This document shows positions 20,639-35,761 of a DNA stretch of 64,000 nucleotides, one piece after another. Location of the stretch: the NCBI RefSeq assembly GCF_000371785.1, contig NZ_AQUI01000002.1, positions 528,590-592,589 on the forward strand, in the 5' to 3' direction. The notes beneath the pieces were generated by a model. That model had not been told where the DNA came from. It ran no database searches and saw only the letters and a program-made list of their open reading frames with translations. The stretch is from Actinopolyspora halophila DSM 43834. GTDB taxonomy: Bacteria; Actinomycetota; Actinomycetes; Mycobacteriales; Pseudonocardiaceae. Position 1 is the stretch's first letter. Each line of letters begins with the position of its first letter. Both the position numbers and the translations under genes were made by a program.

Positions 20639-20744
20639 GCGGGGGTCGACGGCCCGGTTCGCGTGGCGTTTCGGCGCCGCCGCGCCGCGGGAAAGTCTCC
20701 GAGTTCTCCGGTGCTGCGCCAACCGGTTAGGGAAGTCGCTGTCG

Positions 20745-20775
20745 GTCCTTGCGGACGCGCGGTGATTTTCACCGC
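20745..20775. repeat. Possible double hairpin outside the element
   Basis: Between ispF and the HAD gene, gtcc-ttgc-ggac, a gcgcg link and gcggtga-ttt-tcaccgc form two adjacent hairpins. The layout recalls the double-hairpin elements at 25-35 kb, but the first stem is only 4 bp, so the relation is weak. Confidence 0.3.
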
Positions 20776-24272: not shown

Positions 24273-25706
24273 ATGTCGTTCGCAACTCCGCTTTTCCTGT
24301 GGTACTTCCTGCCCGCGGTACTGCTCGCCGTGCTGCTCGCGCCGCGTGCGGGGCGCAACGCGGTGGTTGCCGTGGGCAGTCTGGTTTTCTACGCCAGCGG
24401 TGCGGGCGGCACCACGGCACTGCTGCTCTGCTGCATCGTGGTGAACTTCCTCGTCGGCAGGAACCTGGAGCCGGACGAGTGGGGGCTGGACAGGAACCGT
24501 CGCCGCTACCTGCTCTTCGGCGCGGTGTTGTTCAACCTGACCGTGCTCGGGGTGTGGAAGTACGCGGGCTTCGCCTCCGAGCAGGCCGCGGTGCTGGCGA
24601 ACTGGTTCGGCGGGCACCTGCCCGAGATCGAGTTCGTGCTGCCGATAGGAATCTCCTTCTACACCTTCCACCACATCTCCTATGTGGTCGACATCTACCG
24701 CGGGGAACGCCCCGCCCTGCGGGACCCGGTCGCGTTCGTCGCCTACATAGCGATGTTTCCGCAGCTCGTCGCCGGGCCGATAGTGCGCTACCGGGAGATA
24801 GCCGATCAGCTGCCGCAGCGCCGCACCCACCGGCTCGACGACATAGCCGCGGGCTTCCCCCGGTTCGCCTGGGGGCTGAGCAAGAAGGTGGTGGTGGCCG
24901 ACAGTCTGGCCCCGGTCTCCGACGCCGCCTTTTCGACCTCGGCGGGGGACATGACCTTCGCGGTCGCCTGGCTCGGTGCGATTTCCTACACGGTGCAGCT
25001 CTACTTCGACTTCTCCGGCTACTCGGACATGGCGATCGGGCTGGGGCGGATGCTCGGTTTCCGGTTACCGGAGAACTTCGCACGGCCGTACTCCTCGGTG
25101 ACGGTCACCGAGTTCTGGCAGCGTTGGCACATGTCGTTGTCGCGCTGGTTCCGCGACTACGTCTACATCCCGCTCGGAGGCAACCGGAACGGCACGGTAC
25201 GCACCTACCGCAACCTCACGATCGTGTTCGTGCTGACCGGTTTCTGGCACGGTGCGGCGTGGACCTACCTCGTGTGGGGGTTGTTCCACGGGTTGCTGCT
25301 GGTGATCGAGCGGGCGTGCGGACTCGACCGGCGTCCTGCGGGGATTCCGGAGCGGGTGGCCCGTCGCGTGGCGACCGTGCTGCTGGTGATGGTGGGCTGG
25401 GTGTTCTTCCGAGCCCCCGATCTGGGCAGCGCGACGACGATGCTGGGCAGCATGTTGGTCCCCGATCTCGCCGGGGTGAACGCTGTGGTCGACGCGGCGG
25501 TGACCAACCAGCGCACGCTGATCCTGCTGGCCGCCCTGGTGGTCCTGCTGCTGCCCACCGGTGCGGGGACGGGGACCTACCTGGAGGTGGCCCGCGGCCG
25601 TGCCGCCACGGGAGTCCGGTTCGGAGTCATGACGCTGGGGGTGTTCTACTCCGGTCTGCTCGTTGCCAGTGGCTCGTTCAGCCCGTTCCTCTACTACCAG
25701 TTCTGA
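24273..25706 (+). CDS. MBOAT-family O-acyltransferase (AlgI-like)
   Basis: 477 aa polytopic membrane enzyme that moves acyl groups onto extracytoplasmic polymers. The family core is visible: PIGISFYTFHHISYVVD, YFDFSGYSDMAIG, the WRRWHMSLS-like FWQRWHMSLSRWFRDYVYIPLGG (cut here by length) and the catalytic-His region FWHGAAWTYLVWG. Its last five codons and stop (25689-25706) are also the left attachment site of the 10-kb element, which leaves the protein unchanged. The likely partner, an AlgJ/AlgX-like SGNH protein, is now at 36.5 kb on the other side of the insertion. The acylated polymer is unknown. Confidence 0.93.
   Translation: MSFATPLFLWYFLPAVLLAVLLAPRAGRNAVVAVGSLVFYASGAGGTTALLLCCIVVNFLVGRNLEPDEWGLDRNRRRYLLFGAVLFNLTVLGVWKYAGFASEQAAVLANWFGGHLPEIEFVLPIGISFYTFHHISYVVDIYRGERPALRDPVAFVAYIAMFPQLVAGPIVRYREIADQLPQRRTHRLDDIAAGFPRFAWGLSKKVVVADSLAPVSDAAFSTSAGDMTFAVAWLGAISYTVQLYFDFSGYSDMAIGLGRMLGFRLPENFARPYSSVTVTEFWQRWHMSLSRWFRDYVYIPLGGNRNGTVRTYRNLTIVFVLTGFWHGAAWTYLVWGLFHGLLLVIERACGLDRRPAGIPERVARRVATVLLVMVGWVFFRAPDLGSATTMLGSMLVPDLAGVNAVVDAAVTNQRTLILLAALVVLLLPTGAGTGTYLEVARGRAATGVRFGVMTLGVFYSGLLVASGSFSPFLYYQF
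25689..25706 (+). repeat. attL core, 18-bp direct repeat
   Basis: ctctactaccagttctga is identical to 35744-35761. It spans the final five codons (Leu-Tyr-Tyr-Gln-Phe) and stop of the MBOAT gene. Bases just outside differ between the two copies (c before and c after on the left; g and t on the right). Confidence 0.92.
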
Positions 25707-25871
25707 CCTTCAGAAGTTGGTAGGTCTAATATCATCCCTGGTTAGACTAGGCAAACTAGCAGCGCACAGCGGGATGTCTAATCGGAGGATGTCCCGCTGT
25801 GTCCCGCTGGAACCCGGTGGTTCCCGGCACTGTGCTGACTCAGTGCTGACCTCCGGAAGATCGATCTCGGC

Positions 25872-25916
25872 TAGCAATCCGAGATTGCTACCGCGCGTCC
25901 GCAGCTCCCGCTGCGG
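25872..25916. repeat. Double-hairpin element A
   Basis: Hairpin 1 is tagcaatc-cga-gattgcta (25872-25890). A link with cgcgcgt follows, and hairpin 2 is ccgcagc-tccc-gctgcgg (25899-25916), followed by gccg. Layout and link match elements B and C while the stem sequences differ. Confidence 0.75.
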
Positions 25917-25976
25917 GCCGACGTCGCCAGGCTCTACCTCGGTCACAAGGCCCTGTTCTATCGCGGCGGACCCGGC

Positions 25977-26027
25977 CCGGTGGCTCAATCGTGAGCCACC
26001 GGACGCGCGTCCGAATCTATGATTCGG
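25977..26027. repeat. Double-hairpin element B
   Basis: Hairpin 1 has an 11-bp stem (25977-25987 with 25992-26002, loop atcg). The link is acgcgcgt and hairpin 2 is ccgaatc-tat-gattcgg (26011-26027), followed by gccg. It lies immediately after the KYRRA end of a coding repeat on the minus strand and shifts its frame. Confidence 0.78.
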
Positions 26028-26105
26028 GCCGATGCGCGCCGGTATTTCCGTACTGTGTCGCGCTTCTTAAGTCCACGGATACCAAGCTCAGCGAATCCGC
26101 TGAAT

Positions 26106-26441
26106 GACCATTTTTGGTCGTTTGAAGGTGTCTGCCCTCTGCCTACGTCCTCCGTCCACGCACGTCGGTACTTGCGTACTGATCGGAAGTCTTTTAGTCC
26201 TCTGATCTCCAGATCGGCAAACCCCTTCAAGCTGAATTTGGTGGATTTTTCCACCGAACTCTTCGGGCCTGGCTTACCCTCTTCCGTCCACGCATAGACG
26301 TAAGCGGCAAGCTCCCAGCCCGTAGCGGAGTGCAGGCGACCATGCGCGCCGGTACTTGCGAACGCTGTCAAGCTTCTTAAGGCCGCGAATGCCGAGCTCG
26401 GAAAACTCTCTACAAGAGAACTGACCCTTTTTTGGGTCAGT
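26106..26441. repeat. Three T-loop hairpins, one per coding repeat
   Basis: Each of the three repeats in the degenerate gene holds one small hairpin at the same place: gacca-tttt-tggtc (26106-26119), ggtgga-tttt-tccacc (26240-26255) and an 8-bp stem around tttttt (26420-26441). Stem sequences differ but pairing is kept in all three. As the T run is in the loop, these are not ordinary terminators. Confidence 0.6.
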
Positions 26442-26495
26442 CTTGCGCGGCCCTCCAGAGCCTTCCTCCGTCCACGCATAGACGTAGGCGGCCGG

Positions 26496-26544
26496 TCACC
26501 CATCAGGAGTGATGGATGACGCGCGTCCGTAGCTTCCGCTACGG
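26496..26544. repeat. Double-hairpin element C
   Basis: Hairpin 1 pairs 26496-26505 with 26510-26519 (one mismatch, loop ggag). The link is cgcgcgt and hairpin 2 is ccgtagc-ttcc-gctacgg (26527-26544), followed by gccg. Compared with the sequence near 26300-26330, the element interrupts an otherwise continuous minus-strand reading GWEL-AAYVYAW, adding about 56 bp. Confidence 0.78.
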
Positions 26545-26585
26545 GCCGGAGCTCCCAACCCGTCGCCGAATGTAGGCGAGCGGCC

Positions 26586-27273
26586 TTGACCGAAGCTGTT
26601 GGGTCGCTCTGATGGCCCGCTCACCGGGCCACTTCCTAAGAGATCATCGGATCTAGACGCAGCCTCTCGGCTGGTTGAGCTTGGTCTGCTCTGAACCTTG
26701 ATCGCGAATCCGACATCCGGCGCCGCGTGGACACGGTTAAGGCTACGATCCCCCTGGACACGGCTTCAGCGTGTACATGACACACGTCTGCCGAGTCCTA
26801 GAGGGGTGAACATCCGTATGCCGGATTGTGCCTTCGGAACTTCACCCGTCGAGCCTGTTACAGCTCGACAGCGCCGGGGTTACCTCCGGGACCGCGATGG
26901 TGGACGTGACCGGAGGATCGCGCGCGCAACGCTTCCAAGCATGGCGGCGGGGTGCTCCTACAACCGCACGTTTGCGCGCTCCGGTTTCACCCGCTCTAAC
27001 CGGGGAGTCAACGTCTGTGAAACGTCACCAGGACTTAGCCCTGCCCACAGACTGCCTGGACCGTCTGCGGAGGGGAGTCTATTCCGTGCTAGACTCAGCA
27101 CTGGTTTTATTTCATCTTGGCGGAAGGAATATTACCACGGTTGATCCCCCGGTTTCGATCGGGGGATCTTCTCGTATCTCGAACACGCCCTACCGGACGT
27201 GTGAGGGTCGCTAGCTCTGCTAGCTCTCGGACCGATACCCCTCCGGAGCGCTGTGCGCTCGTCTGTGGCCAAC
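26586..27273. other. Stretch without a recognisable gene
   Basis: Several open frames exist but none has a convincing RBS, start or family signature. A plus-strand reading around 26820-26930 (RQRRGYLRDRDGGR) resembles the start of an HNH-type protein but no catalytic motif follows. A hairpin with gtcgagc/gctcgac arms and the one at 27143-27168 are the only clear structures. Confidence 0.5.
27143..27168. terminator. Hairpin, possible terminator
   Basis: gatcccccg (27143-27151) pairs with cgggggatc (27160-27168) and is followed on the plus strand by ttctcgt. It lies just beyond the 3' end of the minus-strand gene at 27274-27531, so it could end that transcript. Confidence 0.5.
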
Positions 27274-27531
27274 TCACAGACCTATACCTCGCGCTACCTC
27301 CGGTGGCAACAGCCGTAGCCCGAGACGCTGCCGCTCTTCCCAGAGCGCCCAATCGGCGAACTCTGCGAACGTCGCCGGTCGAGTTACCTTGATCCATTCG
27401 CAGTCTGCCCGCTCTCCGCGAAGGTGCGCGATATAGGCGTCACGGCCGAACCGTCGCACCACGCTCCCGCGCGGGTACAGGTAGTACGACTCGTACGCGC
27501 GCACCACCCAGCTAGCGTTATCGCCCATCAC
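27274..27531 (-). CDS. Hypothetical protein of the element
   Basis: 85 aa, unrecognised. The sequence is rich in aromatic and charged residues (YESYYLYPRG, CEWIKVTRP, FADWALWEERQRLGL) with one Cys and no membrane segment. Composition looks like a real small soluble protein, but the RBS is weak and the start could be the second Met. It lies at the left end of the element, divergent from the frameshifted HTH gene. Confidence 0.45.
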   Translation of the reverse strand: MMGDNASWVVRAYESYYLYPRGSVVRRFGRDAYIAHLRGERADCEWIKVTRPATFAEFADWALWEERQRLGLRLLPPEVARGIGL

Positions 27532-27638
27532 TCACCTGAACAACTGGAACATACGGAACAAGCGGAGTGTATGTCGGATCATGCACGTCGTGAACCTTCG
27601 GCAGGACACGCGCATTCGGAACTCATACGTTTGGGGGT

Positions 27639-27816
27639 ATGGCGAAGCTGGTGAGCACTGCCGAAGTGGCACAAGAGATCGGAGTAGCTCGCCCAGACGA
27701 TCGCCCGATGGGTCCGGGAAGGGGTCATCACGCCTGCGAGCCGTACGGCAGGCGGACAAAGCAGGTTCGACCTCGACGAAGTGAAGCGACAGCTTCGGGA
27801 ACGTCTGGGTGAGTGA
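27639..27816 (+). pseudogene. Frameshifted AlpA/MerR-type HTH (possible excisionase)
   Basis: The first frame gives MAKLVSTAEVAQEIGVAR and the next frame gives AQTIARWVREGVITPAS followed by GGQSRFDLDEVKRQL. Joined at the ccc at 27692-27694, they form one normal helix-turn-helix protein of about 58 aa with a beta-wing, like phage excisionases and AlpA. One extra C (ccc for cc) breaks it: removing it gives GVARQTIARW. It could be a real mutation, a sequencing error or a programmed shift. Confidence 0.7.
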
Positions 27817-27860
27817 CTTCCTTCGGGAAAGTCTCCCCCGGTGATTCGCCGGGGTTCGGC

Positions 27861-27902
27861 TCCAACGAAGTTGGAACGCGTGTTCGCTGGTCTCTGCCAG
27901 CG
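27861..27902. repeat. Double-hairpin element E
   Basis: Hairpin 1 is tccaac-gaa-gttgga (27861-27875), the link is acgcgtgtt, and hairpin 2 is cgctgg-tctctg-ccagcg (27885-27902), then gacc. Divergent from A-C but the same two-hairpin plan. It lies 45 bp after the frameshifted HTH gene in a gene-free stretch (27817-28132). Confidence 0.6.
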
Positions 27903-28132
27903 GACCGTTACCCCTCGGAAGGCTCAACAAAGCTTCTGTGAAGCTCTCAGAGCTCTCTAGGGTAAACCTCCTGGTCACAGGGCTAGAGTCTCAGGCTGTT
28001 TTGCCTGGTCAGTCCACTATCGTGAAACGCGACAGTGGAAGCCCTAACCCGAACCTCACCGTGATCAACGAGCCTGGCTGCTAGAACGGATCGTTCGGTC
28101 AGCTCTCTGACCTGCAAAGACTTAATCTCAGT

Positions 28133-28159
28133 AAGGGTGCGCCATTTCGGCGCACCCTT
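28133..28159. terminator. Terminator at the end of the TerS operon
   Basis: An 11-bp GC-rich stem, aagggtgcgcc with ggcgcaccctt, has a 5-nt loop. It lies downstream of the last minus-strand gene of the cluster (28217-28438). Confidence 0.75.
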
Positions 28160-28173
28160 CGCTGACCGCTGGA

Positions 28174-28200
28174 GCTGACATCCGCAGTATGGATGTCAGC
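28174..28200. terminator. Second hairpin after the TerS operon
   Basis: A perfect 10-bp stem, gctgacatcc with ggatgtcagc, and a 7-nt loop lie 14 bp from the neighbouring terminator and 17 bp after the last gene of the operon. It probably acts with it. Confidence 0.65.
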
Positions 28201-28216
28201 CTCATCGAGAACTGCG

Positions 28217-28438
28217 TTACTTCTGATGCAGTTTTAACCATTCCCGAAGTGTCGAATCCTCCGGAGGAAGGTAGCCGTGGACGCTGAGAGCATCAGCATA
28301 ATTCGTATACGCCTGGTAGGAGTCGTACCAATCTCCGTGTCTGTCCTCTCGGGACGGCCAGAATTCGGCAGGGTCCGGATTCGTCACCCAACCCGGAGGA
28401 AGTTTCCGAGTCTTCTTCGGATGTCTCACACAGTCCAC
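28217..28438 (-). CDS. Hypothetical protein downstream of TerS-like gene
   Basis: 73 aa, not recognised. It is hydrophilic with a PPGWVTNPDPAEFWP segment and several Tyr/Trp residues. Its start overlaps the end of the TerS-like gene by 13 bases, which suggests translational coupling, and terminator hairpins follow its stop. A role with the terminase-like protein can only be guessed from position. Confidence 0.6.
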   Translation of the reverse strand: MDCVRHPKKTRKLPPGWVTNPDPAEFWPSREDRHGDWYDSYQAYTNYADALSVHGYLPPEDSTLREWLKLHQK

Positions 28439-28788
28439 CTGGCCTTAGCAGCCTTACGACCCGCTTCGGAGCGGGTCATCTTAGCTGATTCCGACTCGTC
28501 CTCGTCGGGCTCGTCGGGCTCGTCTGGAATGTTGAGCCTACGAAGTAGATTCGCCAGAGTCACCCTGTGCTGCCTGAGTTCGGTCACCAGCGGATTAATC
28601 GCGTCCTGGCCCATACTTCCCTTGACGAATAGATCAGCCTCGGTCATGGCGTTCTCAAGCCTCTCTACCATGTCAATCTCGTGAGCAGCATCCAGCAAAA
28701 TTCGTTCCTCGTCCGGACGCACTCCCAAGAAATATCCCGCTACGGAGTCGTAGAATTCACTCCCAGCGGGTCCTAGCTGTTGGTTCAT
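28426..28788 (-). CDS. Phage terminase small-subunit-like protein
   Basis: 120 aa. The central part (residues about 10-90) reads like actinophage TerS proteins: a lone domain with RPDEERILLDAAHEIDMVERLE, then GSMGQDAINPLVTELRQHR, then LANLLRRLNIPDE. The C-terminus is acidic and ends in a basic SEAGRKAAKARW. TerS selects viral DNA for packaging. No large terminase is nearby; in satellites a solitary TerS redirects the helper's packaging motor (family knowledge). The ATG at 28788 has AAGGAG 5 bases upstream. Confidence 0.75.
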   Translation of the reverse strand: MNQQLGPAGSEFYDSVAGYFLGVRPDEERILLDAAHEIDMVERLENAMTEADLFVKGSMGQDAINPLVTELRQHRVTLANLLRRLNIPDEPDEPDEDESESAKMTRSEAGRKAAKARWTV

Positions 28789-28913
28789 CGGTCTCCTTCC
28801 AAAAAAAACAAAGATGTCCTTGCGTCGCATATAGCGCCGCCTGCTAAACGAAACGGGAAGAGCCGTGTCGGGAGAGGGGTAACCCCCCAGGTGACACGGC
28901 CGATTCTCTCTCG

Positions 28914-29222
28914 TCAGACATCACGCGAAGGATGCGCTTCGCCTTCGCGGAACTTGTCGCGCTTCATTTTCTGACGTTTCGCCACGCTTTCGCGAGCTGT
29001 CTTGCTCGCGTGACACGAGCGACAGAGCGCTTGGAGGTTATTCAAGCTGTGGTTGTCATTATTCTCGATATGATCCACGTCTGTCGCACGTTTTCCGCAG
29101 AGGCCATATTCCTTCTGCCTCTGGCAGGTGTAGTTATCTCGTACCAGGGTCTTTCTGCGACGACTCCCCCAATCACGGGGGAGCCGTTGCTTACGGGTGG
29201 AGTCTTTGAAACCTCGGGCCAT
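28914..29222 (-). CDS. HNH endonuclease
   Basis: 102 aa. An HNH nuclease is formed by a zinc-binding Cys33/Cys42 pair, the catalytic DHI (Asp50-His51), Asn61-62, then Cys67-x-x-Cys70-His71. The C-terminus is basic. Phages commonly encode such a protein next to the terminase, where it helps packaging of DNA ends; the same placement before TerS is seen here. The fold call is sure, the packaging role is an inference. Confidence 0.88.
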   Translation of the reverse strand: MARGFKDSTRKQRLPRDWGSRRRKTLVRDNYTCQRQKEYGLCGKRATDVDHIENNDNHSLNNLQALCRSCHASKTARESVAKRQKMKRDKFREGEAHPSRDV

Positions 29223-29281
29223 AAGGGTCCTTGTCTATGTTCGGGAGGCCCCCCTGGCCGGAATAGCCAGGGGGAGGGGCC

Positions 29282-30055
29282 TCACATATTTTTCAGCCGG
29301 GGCATGTTCTGATTAGTCCGGGAAATATAGTCGGTCGGCATCTGATTACGAATCCGCTCGTACTCGCGAGCGATATCCTCGATCGAGTGCATGACCAACG
29401 GGACCCCGTTCTGGACAGCGGTCAAGGCGACTACGTTCAGATTCTGGCGAAGTCCCTTCGGGAGGTTCGACGGGTTAGCGTCAACGAGCTTCTGATACTC
29501 GGAGATCGTGGAAGGCTTAGTGATCTTCAGCGGATCACCCGCAACGACGCCCTTCGGACGCTGCTTCGCGGAATAGACCTCGGAGATCACGCCCTTAGTG
29601 AAGCTCTCGATCATCGTGATCGTCTTGCTCGCTTCCTGAGCCGTTTCGAGAGCCTTGAGAGCTTCAGAGCCAGCCCGGATAAGGCTGGACTCGTCCAAGT
29701 CCTCGGGAAGCTTTTTGACGGCTTCAGTGAAGCTGTCAGCGGCAGGAGTGAACTGCTTGCTGAGCTGGGCGGTCACCTCGGGAACTGCGTCCCGAGCTGC
29801 CGGATAGAGCTTGCTAGCCGCATTCGCCTTCAACTGGTTTCGAGCGGGACGCTCGTAATCCTCCGCAGCGAGCTGTGTAGCGAGCTGAAGCAACCGAGCG
29901 GACACGTCCTTGGGCTGTTCCTGCGGGGCTGCAATCGGAGTGTCTTGAGCTTCGTGGAAGGCCTTGATCGCCTCGGTCAGCTGCTTAGGCAGCTTGACTC
30001 CGGGAAGATCGGTGAACAGCTTGCACAGGTTGTTGGCCTTGAGTTCGTCGAACAT
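29282..30055 (-). CDS. Hypothetical alpha-helical protein of the element
   Basis: 257 aa, not recognised. The chain is mostly Ala/Glu/Lys-rich helix with no membrane segment, Cys-poor, with a GVVAGDPLKITKP stretch. The largest protein in the cluster ahead of HNH and TerS, so it could be a scaffold-, capsid-redirecting- or head-associated protein as in other satellites, but nothing in the sequence proves this. The ATG at 30055 has AAAGGA about 10 bases upstream. Confidence 0.7.
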   Translation of the reverse strand: MFDELKANNLCKLFTDLPGVKLPKQLTEAIKAFHEAQDTPIAAPQEQPKDVSARLLQLATQLAAEDYERPARNQLKANAASKLYPAARDAVPEVTAQLSKQFTPAADSFTEAVKKLPEDLDESSLIRAGSEALKALETAQEASKTITMIESFTKGVISEVYSAKQRPKGVVAGDPLKITKPSTISEYQKLVDANPSNLPKGLRQNLNVVALTAVQNGVPLVMHSIEDIAREYERIRNQMPTDYISRTNQNMPRLKNM

Positions 30056-30107
30056 GATGTAGATTCCTTTCTCGGGATTAGCGAACGCTGGTCTTTTACC
30101 AACGGAT

Positions 30108-30323
30108 CTATTTGAGATTCTCTCCACCGGAGAGATGACGCTTAAGGTCATCCTTAACCTTTTTGGTCACCGAAGGACCGTTCAGCGGATGATGGGCGGC
30201 TTCCGGGGAGGACTTCTCGGTATCGTCGGTGAACCTCATCCTCTGGTTTTCCTTTCGGTAGAATTCCCGAAGGATCGGATCGTTCTCGTATTCCTTCGGA
30301 GGACGCGTGTAAACGCGCTTCAT
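30108..30323 (-). CDS. Small basic hypothetical protein
   Basis: 71 aa, Lys/Arg-rich, with RPPKEYENDPILREFYRKE near the start. No family is recognised. The ATG at 30323 overlaps the previous stop by 4 bases (ATGA), so it is coupled to the 92-aa gene upstream. Longer starts run into that gene and are less likely. Confidence 0.6.
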   Translation of the reverse strand: MKRVYTRPPKEYENDPILREFYRKENQRMRFTDDTEKSSPEAAHHPLNGPSVTKKVKDDLKRHLSGGENLK

Positions 30324-30598
30324 GTTGCCCAAAGCTTGACTCCTGTCAGATATTTGTGATCGAGATACGTGATTGCCTCGGGACGGACGAATATCCATCG
30401 ACGGAAACCGTCGATGATTCCTTGACCTGTCTGATCAAGGCTCAGCTCGTCGAGCTGTTCCAGATACTCCGGATACCGCTCCTTGAAGCGGACCGGTAGA
30501 CAGATCGCTACAGACCAGCCCTGTTCGCTGAGTTCTCGGCGGGAATCCCGAGCGGTGAACGCCGAGTCCGGAGCACGCTCTAGCTGTGATACGTCCAT
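30320..30598 (-). CDS. Hypothetical protein of the element
   Basis: 92 aa, unrecognised. It contains a hydrophobic GWSVAICLPV strand and a QGIIDGFRRWIFVRPEA segment suggesting a small alpha/beta fold. It starts 9 bp after the upstream gene and overlaps the next one, so it sits in the middle of a tight operon. Confidence 0.6.
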   Translation of the reverse strand: MDVSQLERAPDSAFTARDSRRELSEQGWSVAICLPVRFKERYPEYLEQLDELSLDQTGQGIIDGFRRWIFVRPEAITYLDHKYLTGVKLWAT

Positions 30599-30607
30599 AA
30601 ACCCCTC

Positions 30608-30850
30608 TCATTTGGCCACAGAGCGATTCTCACCCTCTCCGAGGGTGTTACCACCGGAGAACACTACGATCCGATGGCCGAGCCTGCGGAGCTGCCAGGC
30701 TTCGGGAAGTACGAGACCGTCAGCTAGGCAGTCCGCGAAACCACGAAGGTCGTCTACGTAGTCGGACTGTTCCGGAGAGCTCTGCTCGGTCTTGTCCGCG
30801 AGCTTGCGAACGAATCGTTCGGTTCGTCGGTACGGCTTTCTAGGAGGCAT
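30608..30850 (-). CDS. Hypothetical protein of the element
   Basis: 80 aa, basic at the N-terminus (MPPRKPYRRTERFVRKL), unrecognised. The ATG at 30850 overlaps the end of the zinc-finger gene by 11 bases. Upstream extension is possible but would lie inside that gene. Confidence 0.6.
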   Translation of the reverse strand: MPPRKPYRRTERFVRKLADKTEQSSPEQSDYVDDLRGFADCLADGLVLPEAWQLRRLGHRIVVFSGGNTLGEGENRSVAK

Positions 30851-31031
30851 GACTCCCCCTATCGGGTCGAGCAGTCGCAGAGCCGTGTTCGGCGTTCCAG
30901 CGCTCACGCCTACGGCGAGCTGACCGGCGACGGTGAGCACGCTGACACGTCAAGCACCGTCGATAGCCGTAGAGGAACTCCGAGTTTTCCTCCGTGCGAG
31001 GATGCCCGCACTTCGGGAAGACCTCTTCCAT
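30840..31031 (-). CDS. Small zinc-finger-like protein
   Basis: 63 aa. A C-x-H ... C-x-x-C arrangement (KCGHPRTEENS, then RCLTCQRAHRRR) and a long Arg-rich tail match small actinophage and mobile-element proteins with a CxxGHPRTxEN plus CxxC pattern, which probably bind one zinc and nucleic acid. TTAGGAG precedes the ATG. First gene of the minus-strand operon that ends with TerS, 42 bp after an intrinsic terminator. Confidence 0.7.
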   Translation of the reverse strand: MEEVFPKCGHPRTEENSEFLYGYRRCLTCQRAHRRRSARRRRERWNAEHGSATARPDRGSHAS

Positions 31032-31072
31032 ATCGAACTCCTAACTTATTAAGTAGAGCAGTAGAGACCATG

Positions 31073-31101
31073 AAAAAACCCTGCCCGAGGAACGGGCAGG
31101 G
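31073..31101 (-). terminator. Intrinsic terminator in the leader of the TerS operon
   Basis: On the minus strand, a 9-bp stem (31101-31093 with 31087-31079) is followed directly by six T (31078-31073). This is the most complete rho-independent signal in the window. It lies only 42 bp before the first gene of the operon, so it may act as an attenuator or be read through with an antiterminator. Confidence 0.8.
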
Positions 31102-32001
31102 AATTCTCAACAGGAACTTGTCAAAACAAACGAGTCGGAGTGACCGACCGGAGGTCGGATCACGATCCTTCGCAATCATCTTCGATGGATTGCTCGGAAA
31201 GCGGAAGGGCATCTTCAAGTAAGAGCCCTCCGCATAATCGATCGATTTACTCACCGTGCCGTGGGTAGCACGGTGTCTAGGATCCTCTCGGATAGAACAC
31301 TGAGACCGGCCTTGGCGAGGGAGAGGAAAAGACCAAGGCCGGTCCAGCGGAGAGCGAGGAAAGGATTAACTCGCTCATCTACCGCAGTCGCTCCCCTAAC
31401 GACTGCGGATGTCTCTTTGTATATCTGCTCTTTCCCTGTATATAGGTGCCCCTATCTCTAAAACGGGGCACCGTATGACAGAGATCATAATTATCTCTTG
31501 TCCAGAGGAAGACCCTCTGCGAGGGTCAATCAGGTATCTCTAATCTATCTATTCTTTATCTAATGTCCTCCTCCGGAGGACTTATTATTTAGTCTAGATT
31601 GATCTATATTTCCTTCGGTCGGATAATCGAAGTTCCGAGCCCTCACTTCTCTTGTCCTCCCTCAGTCAATATATAGGGGTTACACCCCTGGGGGGCGTAA
31701 CGTCTCATCCTCTAAATGTGACTACAGTCATACTAATACAGTATTACTAGAGACTCGGCCCCTAAGGGCCGTATAGAGACTCTGACAGCCTCCAACTAAG
31801 GTTTACGGCTGTCCGATACGGAGCCCATAAGCGAAGTATCGGGGATACTTCTCTCTTAACGAGTCTCGATATTGATAAGTGGGTTAAGGGTGGGACATGG
31901 ACCACCCATTAGGGGTCCAGTGTCCCAGTGTCCCAACTCCGTGTCCAGCTAAAATAGAGATCAACTAAAGGCTAGTTGAGACAGCTCTGTCCCAACTTCC
32001 A
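31102..32001. other. AT-richer noncoding region with many hairpins
   Basis: About 900 bp without a convincing gene between the AAA ATPase and the TerS operon, the least GC-rich part of the window. It contains inverted repeats at 31304-31344 (12-bp arms, gaccggccttgg), an 8-bp cgcagtcg pair near 31385, ggtgcccc/ggggcacc near 31447, cggccc-ctaa-gggccg near 31757, and repeated gtgtccca near 31918-31940. It could hold an origin of replication and/or a long regulated leader. Confidence 0.55.
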
Positions 32002-32979
32002 TCACGTTGCGAGAGCCCACCTATCACCCTCGGTACGGGTGAGCAGTTTCGACAACTTCCGTTCCGAGAGGTCTTTCCGGAACCTGTCGGACGATCCTCC
32101 GAACTGCTCGGCCAACTTCCGAGCCGTAGCGCTCGTGTTCAACCCCTGGCAGTGCTGAACCACCCACTGCGCACGCTCGGCGGTTTCATCCATCCGTTGC
32201 TGTTCCCGGTTCCGCTTCCGCGCCTCATCCTCCCGTTCCAACTCTTCGGACGCTCTCGTCTTCTCGACACTGAACCGAGCCCCGGCGCCGTGCTTGAGTA
32301 CAAGCTCATACGGTTCGGCATGGTTGCCGCTGAACTTCAGTGTGAGGTTCCCTTTCCGAGACCGGCGAGCGAAGCACCGCCACCGGACCGACTGCGAGAC
32401 GAGAGCCGATCCCATCGGCTTGTCCGACTTCACCCCGTTCATCCCTGACTTGTCCGAGGAATGGCCGACGATCACCACCGGAATACCGGAACCAGTGAAC
32501 ATCCGCACACCGTCGAAAAACTCCCTGACTACCTCATCCTGATTCATCGAACCGTTCAAACACTGGGTGAGGTTGTCGATCACCACGAAGTTGTGACCGT
32601 TGTCGATGATCGCGTCTCTCAGCTCTCGCCACATGTCGCGGCCTTGCATGATCGGAAGGCCGTAGTACTTCACGTTCGGCTCGGCACCTTCGGGCATCAC
32701 CGATTGAATTCGGGAGCTATACTCAGCCGCTCCCCGGTCGTCGGTCCAACAGACAGCGACCGAGAAATCCCGATCCTGCGGAACCTCCCGTTCTAGGAAC
32801 GGTTGCCCGGTCGTGAGCGAAGCAATCAGGGCCGACACAAGGAAGCTCTTCCCGGACTCCGTTTCCCCGTAGATGATCGTCGAACTAGCACTAACAATGT
32901 GGTCGATCACCCACACGTCGGATTCCTCCGATTCCTTGAGAGCTTCGGTGTGCGTCATAATCGAAAACGAGCTACTCAT
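32002..32979 (-). CDS. AAA (RepA/DnaB-like) ATPase of the element
   Basis: 325 aa RecA-fold ATPase of the AAA_25/RepA group. Walker A is GETESGKS (residues 38-45) and Walker B ends VVIDN (Asp135), followed by VIVGHSSDKSG. The C-terminal 80 residues are charged and look like a winged-helix region (TSATARKLAEQFGG). In plasmids and satellites such proteins work as replicative helicases, sometimes with primase; no primase motif is seen here. AAAGGA lies about 10 bases upstream of the ATG. It is separated by a terminator from the DUF2637 gene. Confidence 0.82.
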   Translation of the reverse strand: MSSSFSIMTHTEALKESEESDVWVIDHIVSASSTIIYGETESGKSFLVSALIASLTTGQPFLEREVPQDRDFSVAVCWTDDRGAAEYSSRIQSVMPEGAEPNVKYYGLPIMQGRDMWRELRDAIIDNGHNFVVIDNLTQCLNGSMNQDEVVREFFDGVRMFTGSGIPVVIVGHSSDKSGMNGVKSDKPMGSALVSQSVRWRCFARRSRKGNLTLKFSGNHAEPYELVLKHGAGARFSVEKTRASEELEREDEARKRNREQQRMDETAERAQWVVQHCQGLNTSATARKLAEQFGGSSDRFRKDLSERKLSKLLTRTEGDRWALAT

Positions 32980-33007
32980 TTTCTGCTGTATCCTTTCTTT
33001 AGTTATC

Positions 33008-33027
33008 TCCGGAGGTTTCCCTCCGGA
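33008..33027. promoter_or_regulatory. Palindrome upstream of the AAA ATPase gene
   Basis: tccggagg-tttc-cctccgga forms a perfect 8-bp hairpin 29 bp upstream of the ATPase start codon. It could be an operator or a leader hairpin. Confidence 0.35.
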
Positions 33028-33095
33028 CCTACCGTGTTCCAGTCTCAGAGGATTTCAGAGGGGTTTATGGGCCTCTCTGATAGACTGGGAGGCAA

Positions 33096-33126
33096 GGCAG
33101 GGGGATAGTTCCCTTATCCCCCTGCC
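33096..33126 (-). terminator. Terminator after DUF2637 gene
   Basis: A 12-bp stem, ggcagggggata with tatccccctgcc, and a 7-nt loop lie 5 bp beyond the stop codon of the DUF2637 gene on the minus strand. Confidence 0.75.
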
Positions 33127-33131
33127 GCTTG

Positions 33132-33905
33132 TCACTCCACCGCCACGAGATGTGGATGATCCTCCGGTGAAGTCTCCGCTTGTTGCCGGAACTCCTTCCG
33201 GCGATCCCTGCCCCACCGGGCAGACCTGCCGAACATCGTGCCGAGAGTCTCGGCAGAGAGGTCCGGATCGCTGCGGAGCTGTTCCAGAGCTGCCGCTCTG
33301 GCTTCGGCAGGGGTCAGCTTCTGGTTCCGAAGTTGCTCGGCAACGTGCCGATCATCCTCTAGTTGTTGGTCGATCGGTAGCCACGGACTCTCGGCAGCCG
33401 AGACCGTCTCCGGAGCGCTGGCAGAGCCGAGCGGAGACGTATCCGGAGGTTCCTCCGGAACACTTTCCTGTTCGGACAGACTCTCTTCCTGGCTTTCTAG
33501 CTGTTCAGAGCTGTGCACAGTGGAACGCTGGACCCGAAGCAGTTGCTCGAACGCCAGGGCCAGAGCAACAGCGGGCCACGCTGCCACCGCAGCCGACAGG
33601 ATCGACATCGCCTGTTCCGGGATCTCGTCCAGGAACGGCACGATGACGTTGGCTGCCAGCGACACGAACAACCCGGTACCGAGAGAGACCACGGTCATGC
33701 CGTGAACCTCGACGCCGTTCCGGCGGGACTGGAAGGCGGACAGCGAGCCTGCCACAACCAGACCGTCCACACTCAACGGCAACAGCCAGGCTCTCCACTC
33801 TTCCCCGGCAGCGATGGCAACTTCCCGAAGGTGCACGAACGAAACCACAGCGGCAACGGCAGTGACTACCGCTACCGCCAGGAGCGTCACTCGGTAACTC
33901 GTCAC
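33132..33905 (-). CDS. DUF2637 (SpdB-like) membrane protein
   Basis: 257 aa. Four membrane segments fill residues about 5-130 (LLAVAVVTAVAAVVSF, LPLSVDGLVVAGSL, VVSLGTGLFVSLAANV, ILSAAVAAWPAVALALAF), the DUF2637 signature. A Glu/Ser/Pro-rich cytosolic tail ends in a helix-turn-helix-like region (SAETLGTMFGRSARWGRDRR). The family is common on actinobacterial conjugative plasmids, AICEs and phages, where it is linked to spread or DNA handling; the actual role is unclear. Its GTG overlaps the previous stop (GTGA). Confidence 0.8.
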   Translation of the reverse strand: MTSYRVTLLAVAVVTAVAAVVSFVHLREVAIAAGEEWRAWLLPLSVDGLVVAGSLSAFQSRRNGVEVHGMTVVSLGTGLFVSLAANVIVPFLDEIPEQAMSILSAAVAAWPAVALALAFEQLLRVQRSTVHSSEQLESQEESLSEQESVPEEPPDTSPLGSASAPETVSAAESPWLPIDQQLEDDRHVAEQLRNQKLTPAEARAAALEQLRSDPDLSAETLGTMFGRSARWGRDRRKEFRQQAETSPEDHPHLVAVE

Positions 33906-34114
33906 CGGTATTCCTCCAAGATTCCCTGTCCGAAGGACATATCCGGATCGTTGATGGTTTTCGAGGACACACGGACCAATCCGTGCGCTTCGATGTGTTC
34001 GCGCACGGGCTGGAATGTTTCCCCGTGCTCTACCGCTACCGGAGAGCGGTAGACGTTTAAACGACCCTGATAGACCCATGCATATATCAGTTTCCTGACA
34101 GAAACGATGTCCAT
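33902..34114 (-). CDS. Small protein upstream of DUF2637
   Basis: 70 aa, not assigned. The start MDIVSVRKLIYAWVYQGRLNV resembles a small DNA-binding excisionase-like or helix-turn-helix fold, but no clear motif is present. An aaaggg lies 7 bases before the ATG. It overlaps the DUF2637 gene by 4 bases and heads that two-gene operon, divergent from the RHH-integrase pair. Confidence 0.6.
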   Translation of the reverse strand: MDIVSVRKLIYAWVYQGRLNVYRSPVAVEHGETFQPVREHIEAHGLVRVSSKTINDPDMSFGQGILEEYR

Positions 34115-34190
34115 CGCTATTCCCTTTCTGTTGTCAACGAGCTAGACTCGGATCAACCCCCGGAGAGGTCAACCAACGTGAACACTAGTC

Positions 34191-34204
34191 GGTGGGTGCC
34201 CACC
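34191..34204. promoter_or_regulatory. Inverted repeat between divergent element promoters
   Basis: ggtggg-tg-cccacc lies between the DUF2637 operon and the RHH-integrase pair and could bind an element regulator. Confidence 0.3.
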
Positions 34205-34247
34205 TGTCAAACAGAATCCGGGAACCACTGCGTGATAAGGTTCTCCT

Positions 34248-34493
34248 ATGCCGAGCAAACACGGGAGCAAGTCCCGAAACCTCCGAGGTGTGGAAGATGA
34301 TCTATGGGAAGAGTTCGGAAAGGCAGTCTCTCAGGCCGACACTGATCGTTCGTCAGTGCTTCGGCAGTGTATCCGGTGGTACCTCGGGTACGGCTCCCTT
34401 CCCGAGCGTCCTTCCGATCCGCTGGCAGAGTCCAGCGGACGCGCGTACGAAGCTCCTGCTTCGTACCGTGTGAGCAACTCAGAAAGCGAGTGA
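34248..34493 (+). CDS. Ribbon-helix-helix-like small regulator
   Basis: 81 aa. Residues about 12-50 (VEDDLWEEFGKAVSQADTD then SSVLRQCIRWYLGYG) fit a CopG/Arc strand-helix-helix DNA-binding fold. The gene ends 4 bp before the integrase start, so the two are co-transcribed; it may act as an excisionase or integrase regulator. The last 27 codons overlap double-hairpin element D, which gives the tail PLAESSGRAYEAPASYRV, so the original C-terminus may have been shorter. Confidence 0.65.
   Translation: MPSKHGSKSRNLRGVEDDLWEEFGKAVSQADTDRSSVLRQCIRWYLGYGSLPERPSDPLAESSGRAYEAPASYRVSNSESE
34418..34466. repeat. Double-hairpin element D, inside the RHH gene
   Basis: Hairpin 1 has an 8-bp stem (34418-34425 with 34432-34439), the link is cgcg, and hairpin 2 has a 9-bp stem around tcct (34445-34453 with 34458-34466). 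It lies entirely in the 3' part of the RHH coding sequence. Confidence 0.75.
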
Positions 34494-34497
34494 CCCT

Positions 34498-35670
34498 ATG
34501 GCTACTGTCTTTCAGAAGTGCAAGCACCGAACAGAGGACCCGTGTACGCAGTCGAGATGTGGGCACCCGTGGACGGTGCGATATCGGGAGCCTGGAGGTC
34601 GAACCGCTCGGCAGCGGGAGAAGTCGCTCCCGAGGAAACGGGAGGCAGACGCTTTCGCGTCGAAAGTTGAAGACCAGAAAAACGAAGGTACCTATAAAGA
34701 TCCCGAGCGCGGGAAGATGACCGTCCGCGCGTGGGCGGACGAATGGCTCGCTAATCAGATTGTCAGTCCTAGTACGCGGGAGGCGTACGAGAGTTTTATC
34801 CGGCTGTATCTCGTCCCGTATCTGGGCAGGAAGACCCTTCAAGGGGTCACCGGGCACGATGTTCAAGGTCTCGTTGCTGCCATGCACAACGGGTACAACG
34901 GTCAGAAGCCACTAGCTCCCTACACGATCAAGACCAGGATCGCGCCGCTTACAGCCATGTTCGCCACGGCTGTTCGGGACAAGCGCATTCCTGACAACCC
35001 GTGCGACGGTGTGACCCTGCCGAGAGTGGCTTCACAAGCCGTAGACCCTGATCAGATCCCCTCGCGTGCCGAGGTGTGCGCGATAGCGGACTCTATGCGT
35101 CCTGCGTTTCAGCTCACCGTGTGGCTTATGGCGGGAGCTGGACTCCGAGTGTCTGAGGCTCTCGCGGTCACGGAGGACTCTCTACGTGGCGACACGCTCC
35201 GCGTGTGGCAACAGGTCAGCTCTACCGGAGCACAAGGCGGGTATCACGCACGGCTCGCACCGTTGAAGCACAGGAAGGAAGGCGAATACCGAGAGATCCC
35301 GTTGCCCTCGTTCCTGGTGGACAAGTTCTATCAGCACACCGCCGAGCACGGCACGGCAACGATCGGAGACCAGGAAGGCATACTCTTCCGGGCCACTACA
35401 GGTGGGCTGTGCGTCCAACAGGCTTACCGGAGGGTCTGGACTCAGGCCTTACAGCACGCTGGACTTACGTCCTACACTCCGCACGACCTTCGGCACTTCT
35501 TCGTGAGCTCCGCTCTCGCGGGAGATGTCTCGTTGCTAGAAGTCTCCCGATGGATCGGCCACAAGTCCATCAAGGTCACAGCCGACACGTACGGCCACCT
35601 GACCGAAGGTGCCCCCGGTCGGCTGCGTCAAGCACTCCAGTCCGCTCTAGACCCTTCCGGGGATGTCTAG
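34498..35670 (+). CDS. int: Tyrosine recombinase/integrase
   Basis: 390 aa phage-type integrase. The catalytic set is complete: Arg217 (GAGLRVSE), His329-x-x-Arg332 (HDLRH), His355 (GHKS) and the nucleophile Tyr365 (DTYGH). An N-terminal arm-binding region holds a Cys/His cluster (Cys8, Cys16, Cys21, His23), then a SAM-like core-binding domain (about 73-180). It ends 73 bp before attR, the usual layout. It should integrate the element into the 3' end of the MBOAT gene and, with an accessory factor, excise it. Confidence 0.95.
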   Translation: MATVFQKCKHRTEDPCTQSRCGHPWTVRYREPGGRTARQREKSLPRKREADAFASKVEDQKNEGTYKDPERGKMTVRAWADEWLANQIVSPSTREAYESFIRLYLVPYLGRKTLQGVTGHDVQGLVAAMHNGYNGQKPLAPYTIKTRIAPLTAMFATAVRDKRIPDNPCDGVTLPRVASQAVDPDQIPSRAEVCAIADSMRPAFQLTVWLMAGAGLRVSEALAVTEDSLRGDTLRVWQQVSSTGAQGGYHARLAPLKHRKEGEYREIPLPSFLVDKFYQHTAEHGTATIGDQEGILFRATTGGLCVQQAYRRVWTQALQHAGLTSYTPHDLRHFFVSSALAGDVSLLEVSRWIGHKSIKVTADTYGHLTEGAPGRLRQALQSALDPSGDV

Positions 35671-35743: not shown

Positions 35744-35761
35744 CTCTACTACCAGTTCTGA
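35744..35761 (+). repeat. attR core, 18-bp direct repeat
   Basis: ctctactaccagttctga, the second copy of the attL core. To its right the chromosomal sequence resumes (tcgtggccacccggg), which would have been next to the MBOAT stop before integration. Confidence 0.92.

Follow-up and report, generated by a model that had tools for sequence, protein, structure and literature searches.

The window analysed here is a 64,000-nucleotide stretch of Actinopolyspora halophila DSM 43834 (contig NZ_AQUI01000002.1). It contained a 10.06-kb integrated island bounded by 18-bp att repeats, and within this island lay five short double-hairpin elements, copies A–E, each 51–59 bp in length. An earlier note on the same DNA had described five such copies and had proposed a family with covarying stems that was able to enter coding sequence; all five were confirmed and their exact bounds were set (Table 1). 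The proposal was borne out by gene segments that lacked the insert, fully for copy C and less fully for copy B. We regard it as probable that the copies belong to a short, non-autonomous, REPIN-like mobile element that inserts cleanly into phage-satellite DNA.

Architecture of the double-hairpin elements

The elements shared a symmetric plan. Each copy, read together with its flanks, was composed of CGRY, hairpin 1, an eight-base centre, hairpin 2, and RYCG. The centre was ACGCGCGT in copies B, C, and E, and one-base variants of it were found in A and D. The ends and the centre were nearly palindromic, and each copy therefore read much alike on both strands. The hairpin–link–hairpin arrangement given in the earlier note was retained, whereas its description of the ends, which covered only the right end of A–C, was incomplete.

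Seven copies of this type are known, A–E and two in a second genome described below, and they provided 14 outer feet and 14 hairpin units. The outer feet were CGGC, CGGT, or CGAT, and the outer ends read CCG in 13 cases and TCG in one. The tetranucleotide CGTC was present at the inner foot of nine hairpin units, facing inward, with its final C inside the stem. Two initial A–T pairs, counted from the outer foot for hairpin 1 and from the inner foot for hairpin 2, started the stem in a single hairpin (hairpin 1 of A). When three sister elements of the second genome were included, whose bounds are uncertain by a few bases, the length was not divisible by three in seven of ten elements. A pyrimidine, mostly T, stood just outside the elements (16 and 12 of 20 ends, respectively), which is a weak preference, as two pairs of copies share their flanks.

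Distinction from chance hairpins

A scan for hairpin–CGCG–hairpin arrangements gave scores of 16–20 for A–E on the plus strand, and the best of 20 Markov-shuffled windows scored 15. Copies C and D (16) barely exceeded the shuffles, and D scored 13 when read from the minus strand. Covariance model R1 was built with four copies (A, B, C, and E), each entered in both orientations, which left D as the only independent copy in the window. The model matched every copy on both strands, with 29–59 bits for A–E and 14.6 bits for the next match in the window. A weaker look-alike that had been suggested at 20743–20774 reached 12.9 bits (E = 0.84) with a fold z of −2.65, lay outside the island, and was best read as chance. 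No Rfam family matched at the places of A–E at gathering thresholds.

A strict descriptor of the feet and centre was run over 2.73 Mb, overlaps included, and matched only A, B, E, and two copies in the metagenome-assembled genome Dino_bin20; it missed C by one mismatch and D by a G–T pair in the right stem. When the search was loosened to any adjacent hairpins with CGG/CCG close to their ends, real sequence (2.61 Mb) gave 24 cases and shuffled sequence (1.25 Mb) gave 2. The 24 cases comprised A, B, five Dino_bin20 elements, and 17 off-plan arrangements, which were mostly in viral contigs and were in some cases longer-stemmed. Adjacent hairpins alone were thus not rare, and the set was defined by the feet and centre that its members have in common. 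An origin of the double hairpins by chance in GC-rich DNA would agree with these 17 off-plan cases and with model look-alikes of 27–36 bits in six other genomes (G010, G030, G029, G017, G145, and G103). The narrow yield of the strict descriptor, the near absence of looser cases from shuffled sequence, and the covariation among six copies described below make chance an explanation of negligible probability for the set as a whole. Two further strong adjacent hairpins, with 14 bases between them and unlike the elements, were seen at 28133–28200 of the window; they are possibly back-to-back terminators.

Insertion into genes

The island carried repeated copies of one gene segment, and this repetition within the gene interrupted by A–C supplied an insert-free comparison. 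When exactly 56 bp were omitted at copy C, the insert-free segment copy shared 29 of 32 positions with the left flank and 30 of 45 with the right one, while the right flank matched at no more than 14 of 45 positions at other offsets (−3 to +3). At copy B, the identities were 47 of 60 in the right flank and 7 of 10 in the left flank. The inserted sequence was exactly CGG...CCG, at base resolution for C and with the weaker left flank for B, and no target duplication or deletion was visible at either place in the insert-free segment comparison. When the flanks were joined by script, the reading frame remained open across B. Across C it ran on until a stop that lies beyond the first segment copy, and shortly after A a stop was reached. 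The element was absent from the segment copy at C, and probably at B, and had therefore not grown there from local sequence.

Among 190 family genomes, the own genome included, relatives of the interrupted gene were found in G203 (E = 6.7e-9) and G127 (E = 0.001). The G203 protein matched at 40% over 72 residues and was unbroken through the place of C, reaching the Trp residue in which B lies. Searches with tblastn found no relative of the gene among phages or plasmids, and no confirmed one in the viral_contigs collection. The repeats within the interrupted gene that gave the insert-free comparison, at 26032–26399 of the window, are degenerate, and a KYRRAW-like motif closes the segments.

The RHH-like open reading frame (ORF) stayed open across copy E. 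The earlier note had placed copy D in this coding sequence, which was an error of assignment, since E is the copy that lies there; we judge that D lies outside any convincing gene. An empty site for E was not obtained: seven integrase-related loci had no RHH-like ORF beside the integrase, tblastn gave nothing significant, and no relative was present in phages.

Copies in other genomes

The own genome was searched with R1, and 150 of 4,045 candidate places were scored. Copies A–E and one 22-bit match at C2:637131 (E about 1) were returned, with no further strong copy among the places scored. Sixty relatives gave weak matches of 27.6–31.4 bits in four genomes. The family search covered 297 genomes, including the own genome, with 19 candidates scored per genome, a setting at which D was missed. 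It gave two matches, of 51.1 and 49.6 bits, in G070 (Pseudonocardiaceae bacterium Dino_bin20, contig WHSY01000021.1) and one of 36 bits in G145. The G145 match had imperfect hairpins, apparently in coding sequence, and was tentatively treated as chance. When 150 of 4,984 candidates of Dino_bin20 were scored, two copies of this type were obtained, which brought the total to seven copies in two genomes. A covariance search had been named in the earlier note as the check on the family, and these two copies are what it added; the claim was not refuted. The second genome of the genus of G070, G103, gave only a 30.5-bit match, which showed no clear hairpins by eye.

Searches of the order (397 genomes) and the class (394 genomes), the own genome included, returned matches in the own genome only, at reduced sensitivity: 14 candidates were scored per genome, the own copy D was unlisted, and the inclusion of G070 was uncertain. 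One strict pattern run against genome_contigs, which was unable to match A-, D-, or E-like copies and whose target possibly excluded records near the own genome, gave nine stretches; eight were without a double hairpin and one was Dino_bin20. In viral_contigs, a half-element pattern gave 92 stretches, the best reaching 26.3 bits among the 80 listed and scored with the model. The whole plan gave at least 120 stretches (80 listed) and the TCGCGA centre 18. Script scans of the retrieved loci found other strong double hairpins and no element of the plan.

The Dino_bin20 contig carried, within 9 kb, genes for a capsid protein, a head-tail adaptor, an HNH protein, and an integrase with a DNA-invertase match. 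Its capsid protein shared 34% identity with the capsid of Mycolicibacterium phages of 11 kb. One copy (597–651) overlapped the end of the head-tail adaptor ORF (636–1073). Dino_bin20 also contained three sister elements, which kept the CGGC...GCCG ends and differed in their centres (Table 1). The ORF that hosts sister elements had relatives without the added segments in G071, in G080, and elsewhere in G070, although the alignment was loose near its ends; matches in G151 and G018 looked unrelated. Short repeats were present at the flanks of the sister element in locus L298. More adjacent hairpins, with other centres and off the plan, were seen in the Dino element at L127 5566–5650. In the family genome G010 (contig C17, 104282–105842; L307), a relative of the Dino capsid adjoined a relative of the window integrase, which links both element kinds.

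The residence of all copies in phage-like DNA, their very stable folds, and the open frame that E leaves in its host ORF would also suit hairpins that work for the satellite as cis-signals in packaging, replication, or transcription stop and do not move. Signals of this kind are hard to reconcile with the breaking of a gene by A–C and with seven integrase-related loci (L129, L146–L151) that held no match above 16.7 bits (L152 was covered by a script scan only). Four capsid-related loci of other genomes (L305–L308) likewise showed no element of the plan in the descriptor scan, although a capsid-related Dino contig does carry a sister element. We therefore consider a fixed signalling role improbable.

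Covariation and folding of the stems

Covariation was measured with six copies aligned, the seventh, D, being left out, and with loops and inner stems trimmed or padded. Standard pairs occupied 94.4% of 108 pair cells, and 11 of 18 pairs had changes on both sides. The covariation score was 0.681, compared with 0.210 for shuffled alignments (0 of 500 reached it) and at most 0.137 with partners slid. The two Dino copies had an identical hairpin 2, and their hairpin 1 differed at three of eight pairs, all three two-sided. Hairpin 2 of A, C, and E differed from one another only by two-sided changes, at one or two of seven pairs. Hairpin 2 of D was recognisably related to the inverted hairpin 1 of E, with one one-sided change. 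The stems therefore do not differ completely, as had been supposed; at least these stems were related and had drifted as pairs.

When folded as single-stranded DNA, A–E had z values of −3.2 to −6.1, and the range was −3.2 to −6.3 with the five Dino elements included; the fold of D was equalled by 1 of 200 shuffles. In the predicted folds, CG bases of the ends often paired with CG bases of the centre, so that the two hairpins stood directly next to each other, separated by a small bulge or internal loop.

The matched changes had been taken as a sign that structure, not sequence, is under selection. Template switching between the arms can create and maintain hairpins, restoring and rewriting their stems, in the account given in PMC8794818, and matched stem changes need not mean selection. 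By this explanation, one arm is rewritten from the other by mutation and the hairpin stays perfect, as would fit the stem changes that separate the two Dino copies, all of which are paired. Correction of one arm from the other does not by itself account for the persistence of the feet and centre, and at C, and probably at B, the whole element is missing from the segment copy. We lean against template switching as the source of the matched changes while giving it appreciable weight. The elements, if mobile, would form a compact system in which to ask whether covarying stems need selection or follow from template switching in replication.

Comparison with known palindromic elements

From their sequences, we read the elements as REPIN-like and not as members of the GTAG or CGTC superfamilies of repetitive extragenic palindromic (REP) sequences. 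This assignment rests on the missing GTAG, the inward CGTC-like bases, the CCG tails, the few A–T starts, and the few copies. As described, REPINs contain two inverted units per mobile unit with compensating changes between them (PMC3116915; PMC8266576). They are thought to move as single-stranded hairpins, with RAYT proposed as the mover and the stem sequence partly free (PMC3116915, PMC8266576). Two inverted hairpin units per element were likewise found here. In contrast to REPINs, the GTAG foot was missing, the stems varied widely, and the hosts were phage-satellite-like elements of Pseudonocardiaceae. Five copies were present in the own genome and two in G070, whereas REP families have many copies with conserved sequence. 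The island ORFs compared with Pfam (10 ORFs), PHROGs (9), and NCBIfam (9) included no RAYT (Y1) gene, the rest of the genome not being searched.

The GTAG and CGTC superfamilies have stems of 5–13 and 8–9 bp, respectively, and are reported to show alternative complementary residues, dimers, and intragenic copies (PMC3733652). The CGTC-tagged REPs include dRS3 and RPE-4/RPE-6 and are given there as having no known transposase, and the predominant CGTC dimer has its tags outside (PMC3733652). The phyla listed in that source for GTAG or CGTC tags do not include Actinobacteria, and untagged REP-like sequences in M. tuberculosis are mentioned (PMC3733652). The present elements resembled CGTC-tagged REPs in their short stems, dimers, intragenic copies, and CGTC-like tetranucleotides at the hairpin feet. 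They differed in the inward direction of these motifs, in a tail of CCG instead of CCA, in having 2–5 copies per genome, and in the rarity of initial A–T pairs.

The shared features, alternative complementary stem residues among them, together with the centre GACG-CG-CGTC in copies B, C, and F, would be expected if the copies were known tagged REPs that owe their movement to a RAYT-type transposase already present elsewhere in the cell. The absence of GTAG, the inward orientation of CGTC where it is present, the CCG tails, the scarcity of A–T starts, and the published phylum list all stand against such membership, which we judge unlikely.

Mitochondrial double-hairpin elements consist of two adjacent hairpins, are potentially mobile, and occur also inside genes, according to PMC2800124; compared by layout only, they share the arrangement of adjacent hairpins in dispersed copies. 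Rickettsia palindromic elements are described as palindromic inserts of about 150 bp that can be in frame in coding sequence (PMC10969869). The in-frame palindromic insertion is alike, and the elements here are doublets of 51–59 bp. The statement that no described family has this layout was too strong, as REP doublets or REPINs, CGTC-tagged REPs, and mitochondrial double-hairpin elements share it. Titles and abstract beginnings of open-access literature yielded no account of such elements from actinobacteria or from phage satellites.

Proposed mode of movement

Handling of the element as a folded single strand is compatible with its clean insertion, its two inverted hairpins, its constant feet, and the freedom of its stem sequences. 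The REPIN-like element would move as a single DNA strand in its folded state, and a protein acting in trans would presumably be the mover, reading the shape, feet, and centre of the element. Among known enzymes, a Y1/HUH transposase of the RAYT type would be the most familiar, though tentative, candidate for this mover. Movement would most likely take place during replication of the satellite, and the stems would be expected to drift freely provided that both arms change together.

Several observations weigh against a REPIN-like mobile element. REP families have far more members than the seven copies known here from two genomes. Neither a transposase nor a donor was found, in work that did not search the whole genome for a transposase, and movement was not seen. 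Common descent inside a single element, instead of repeated insertion, may account for the relatedness of the copies. The left flank of B matched at only 7 of 10 positions, and the likeness of the G203 protein downstream of B was recognised by eye only, as tblastn with the downstream piece of the window missed it. In the covariation alignment, columns 4 and 23 were unpaired in four of six copies. The structure was drawn from the copies tested, which favours it, and related sequences can exceed shuffles without any structure.

A broader proposal, which we put forward as doubtful, is a class of miniature mobile DNA of satellites that is defined by geometry and not by sequence: two hairpins of almost free sequence, CG feet, and a short near-palindromic centre (ACGCGCGT, TCGCGA, or TCCTGGA). 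Its members would be handled as folded single strands by an enzyme of the satellite or its helper, and their two hairpins would evolve as separable modules.

If REPIN-like movement is correct, the REPIN kind of small palindromic mobile element also has a home in phage satellites, and its recognition depends mainly on shape, which would explain the near-free rewriting of the stems. Clean insertions, some of them in frame, would then be a route by which satellites gain short protein segments or lose genes.

Host island

The genes of the island are listed in Table 1. The gene at the left att repeat was presumably an MBOAT acyltransferase-like gene. The RHH/Arc-like ORF that contains copy E had no Pfam or NCBIfam match.

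Table 1. Double-hairpin elements, sister elements, and features of the host island (window positions unless a locus is named)
Feature	Location	Strand	Description
Copy A	25868-25920	.	53 bp; CGGC-hairpin 1-CCGCGCGT-hairpin 2-GCCG; near 3' end of interrupted gene
Copy B	25973-26031	.	59 bp; within Trp codon of small minus-strand gene
Copy C	26493-26548	.	56 bp; splits one of two copies of one gene segment
Copy D	27857-27907	.	51 bp; most diverged
Copy E	34415-34468	.	54 bp = 18 codons; in frame near 3' end of RHH-like ORF
Two sister elements, centre TCGCGA	L127 6768-6820 and 6972-7024		inside small ORF, same contig as Dino copies
Sister element, centre TCCTGGA	L298 19740-19790		open frame, phage-like region, another Dino_bin20 contig
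Left att repeat	25689..25706	+	18-bp direct repeat; at 3' end of presumed MBOAT-like gene
Right att repeat	35744..35761	+	identical 18 bp
Small gene with repeated segments, split by A, B, and C	25870..26590 (approximate)	-	segment comparison and relatives
Terminase small subunit	28426..28830	-	phrog_1496, 5.4e-21
HNH endonuclease	28914..29222	-	phrog_333, 1.5e-29
AAA ATPase / primase-helicase-like protein	32002..32979	-	PF13481 6.5e-16; phrog_906 5.6e-06
DUF2637 protein	33132..34079	-	PF10935 1.6e-15
RHH/Arc-like ORF with copy E	34248..34493	+	weak: phrog_6506 E=0.038
Tyrosine integrase of island	34498..35670	+	Pfam PF00589 3.9e-13

No capsid, portal, or large terminase gene was found among the island ORFs scanned with the three profile sets. 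Judged by its gene content, the island resembles a phage satellite, with an integrase, att repeats, packaging-type genes, and no virion genes among the scanned ORFs. A nucleotide search of phages and plasmids with positions 25700–28300 gave no match. Near copy D, at 27640–27818 of the window, an excisionase-like ORF was readable by eye only across a frame change. Like the gene hit by A–C, this ORF looked broken, and the island may be decaying.

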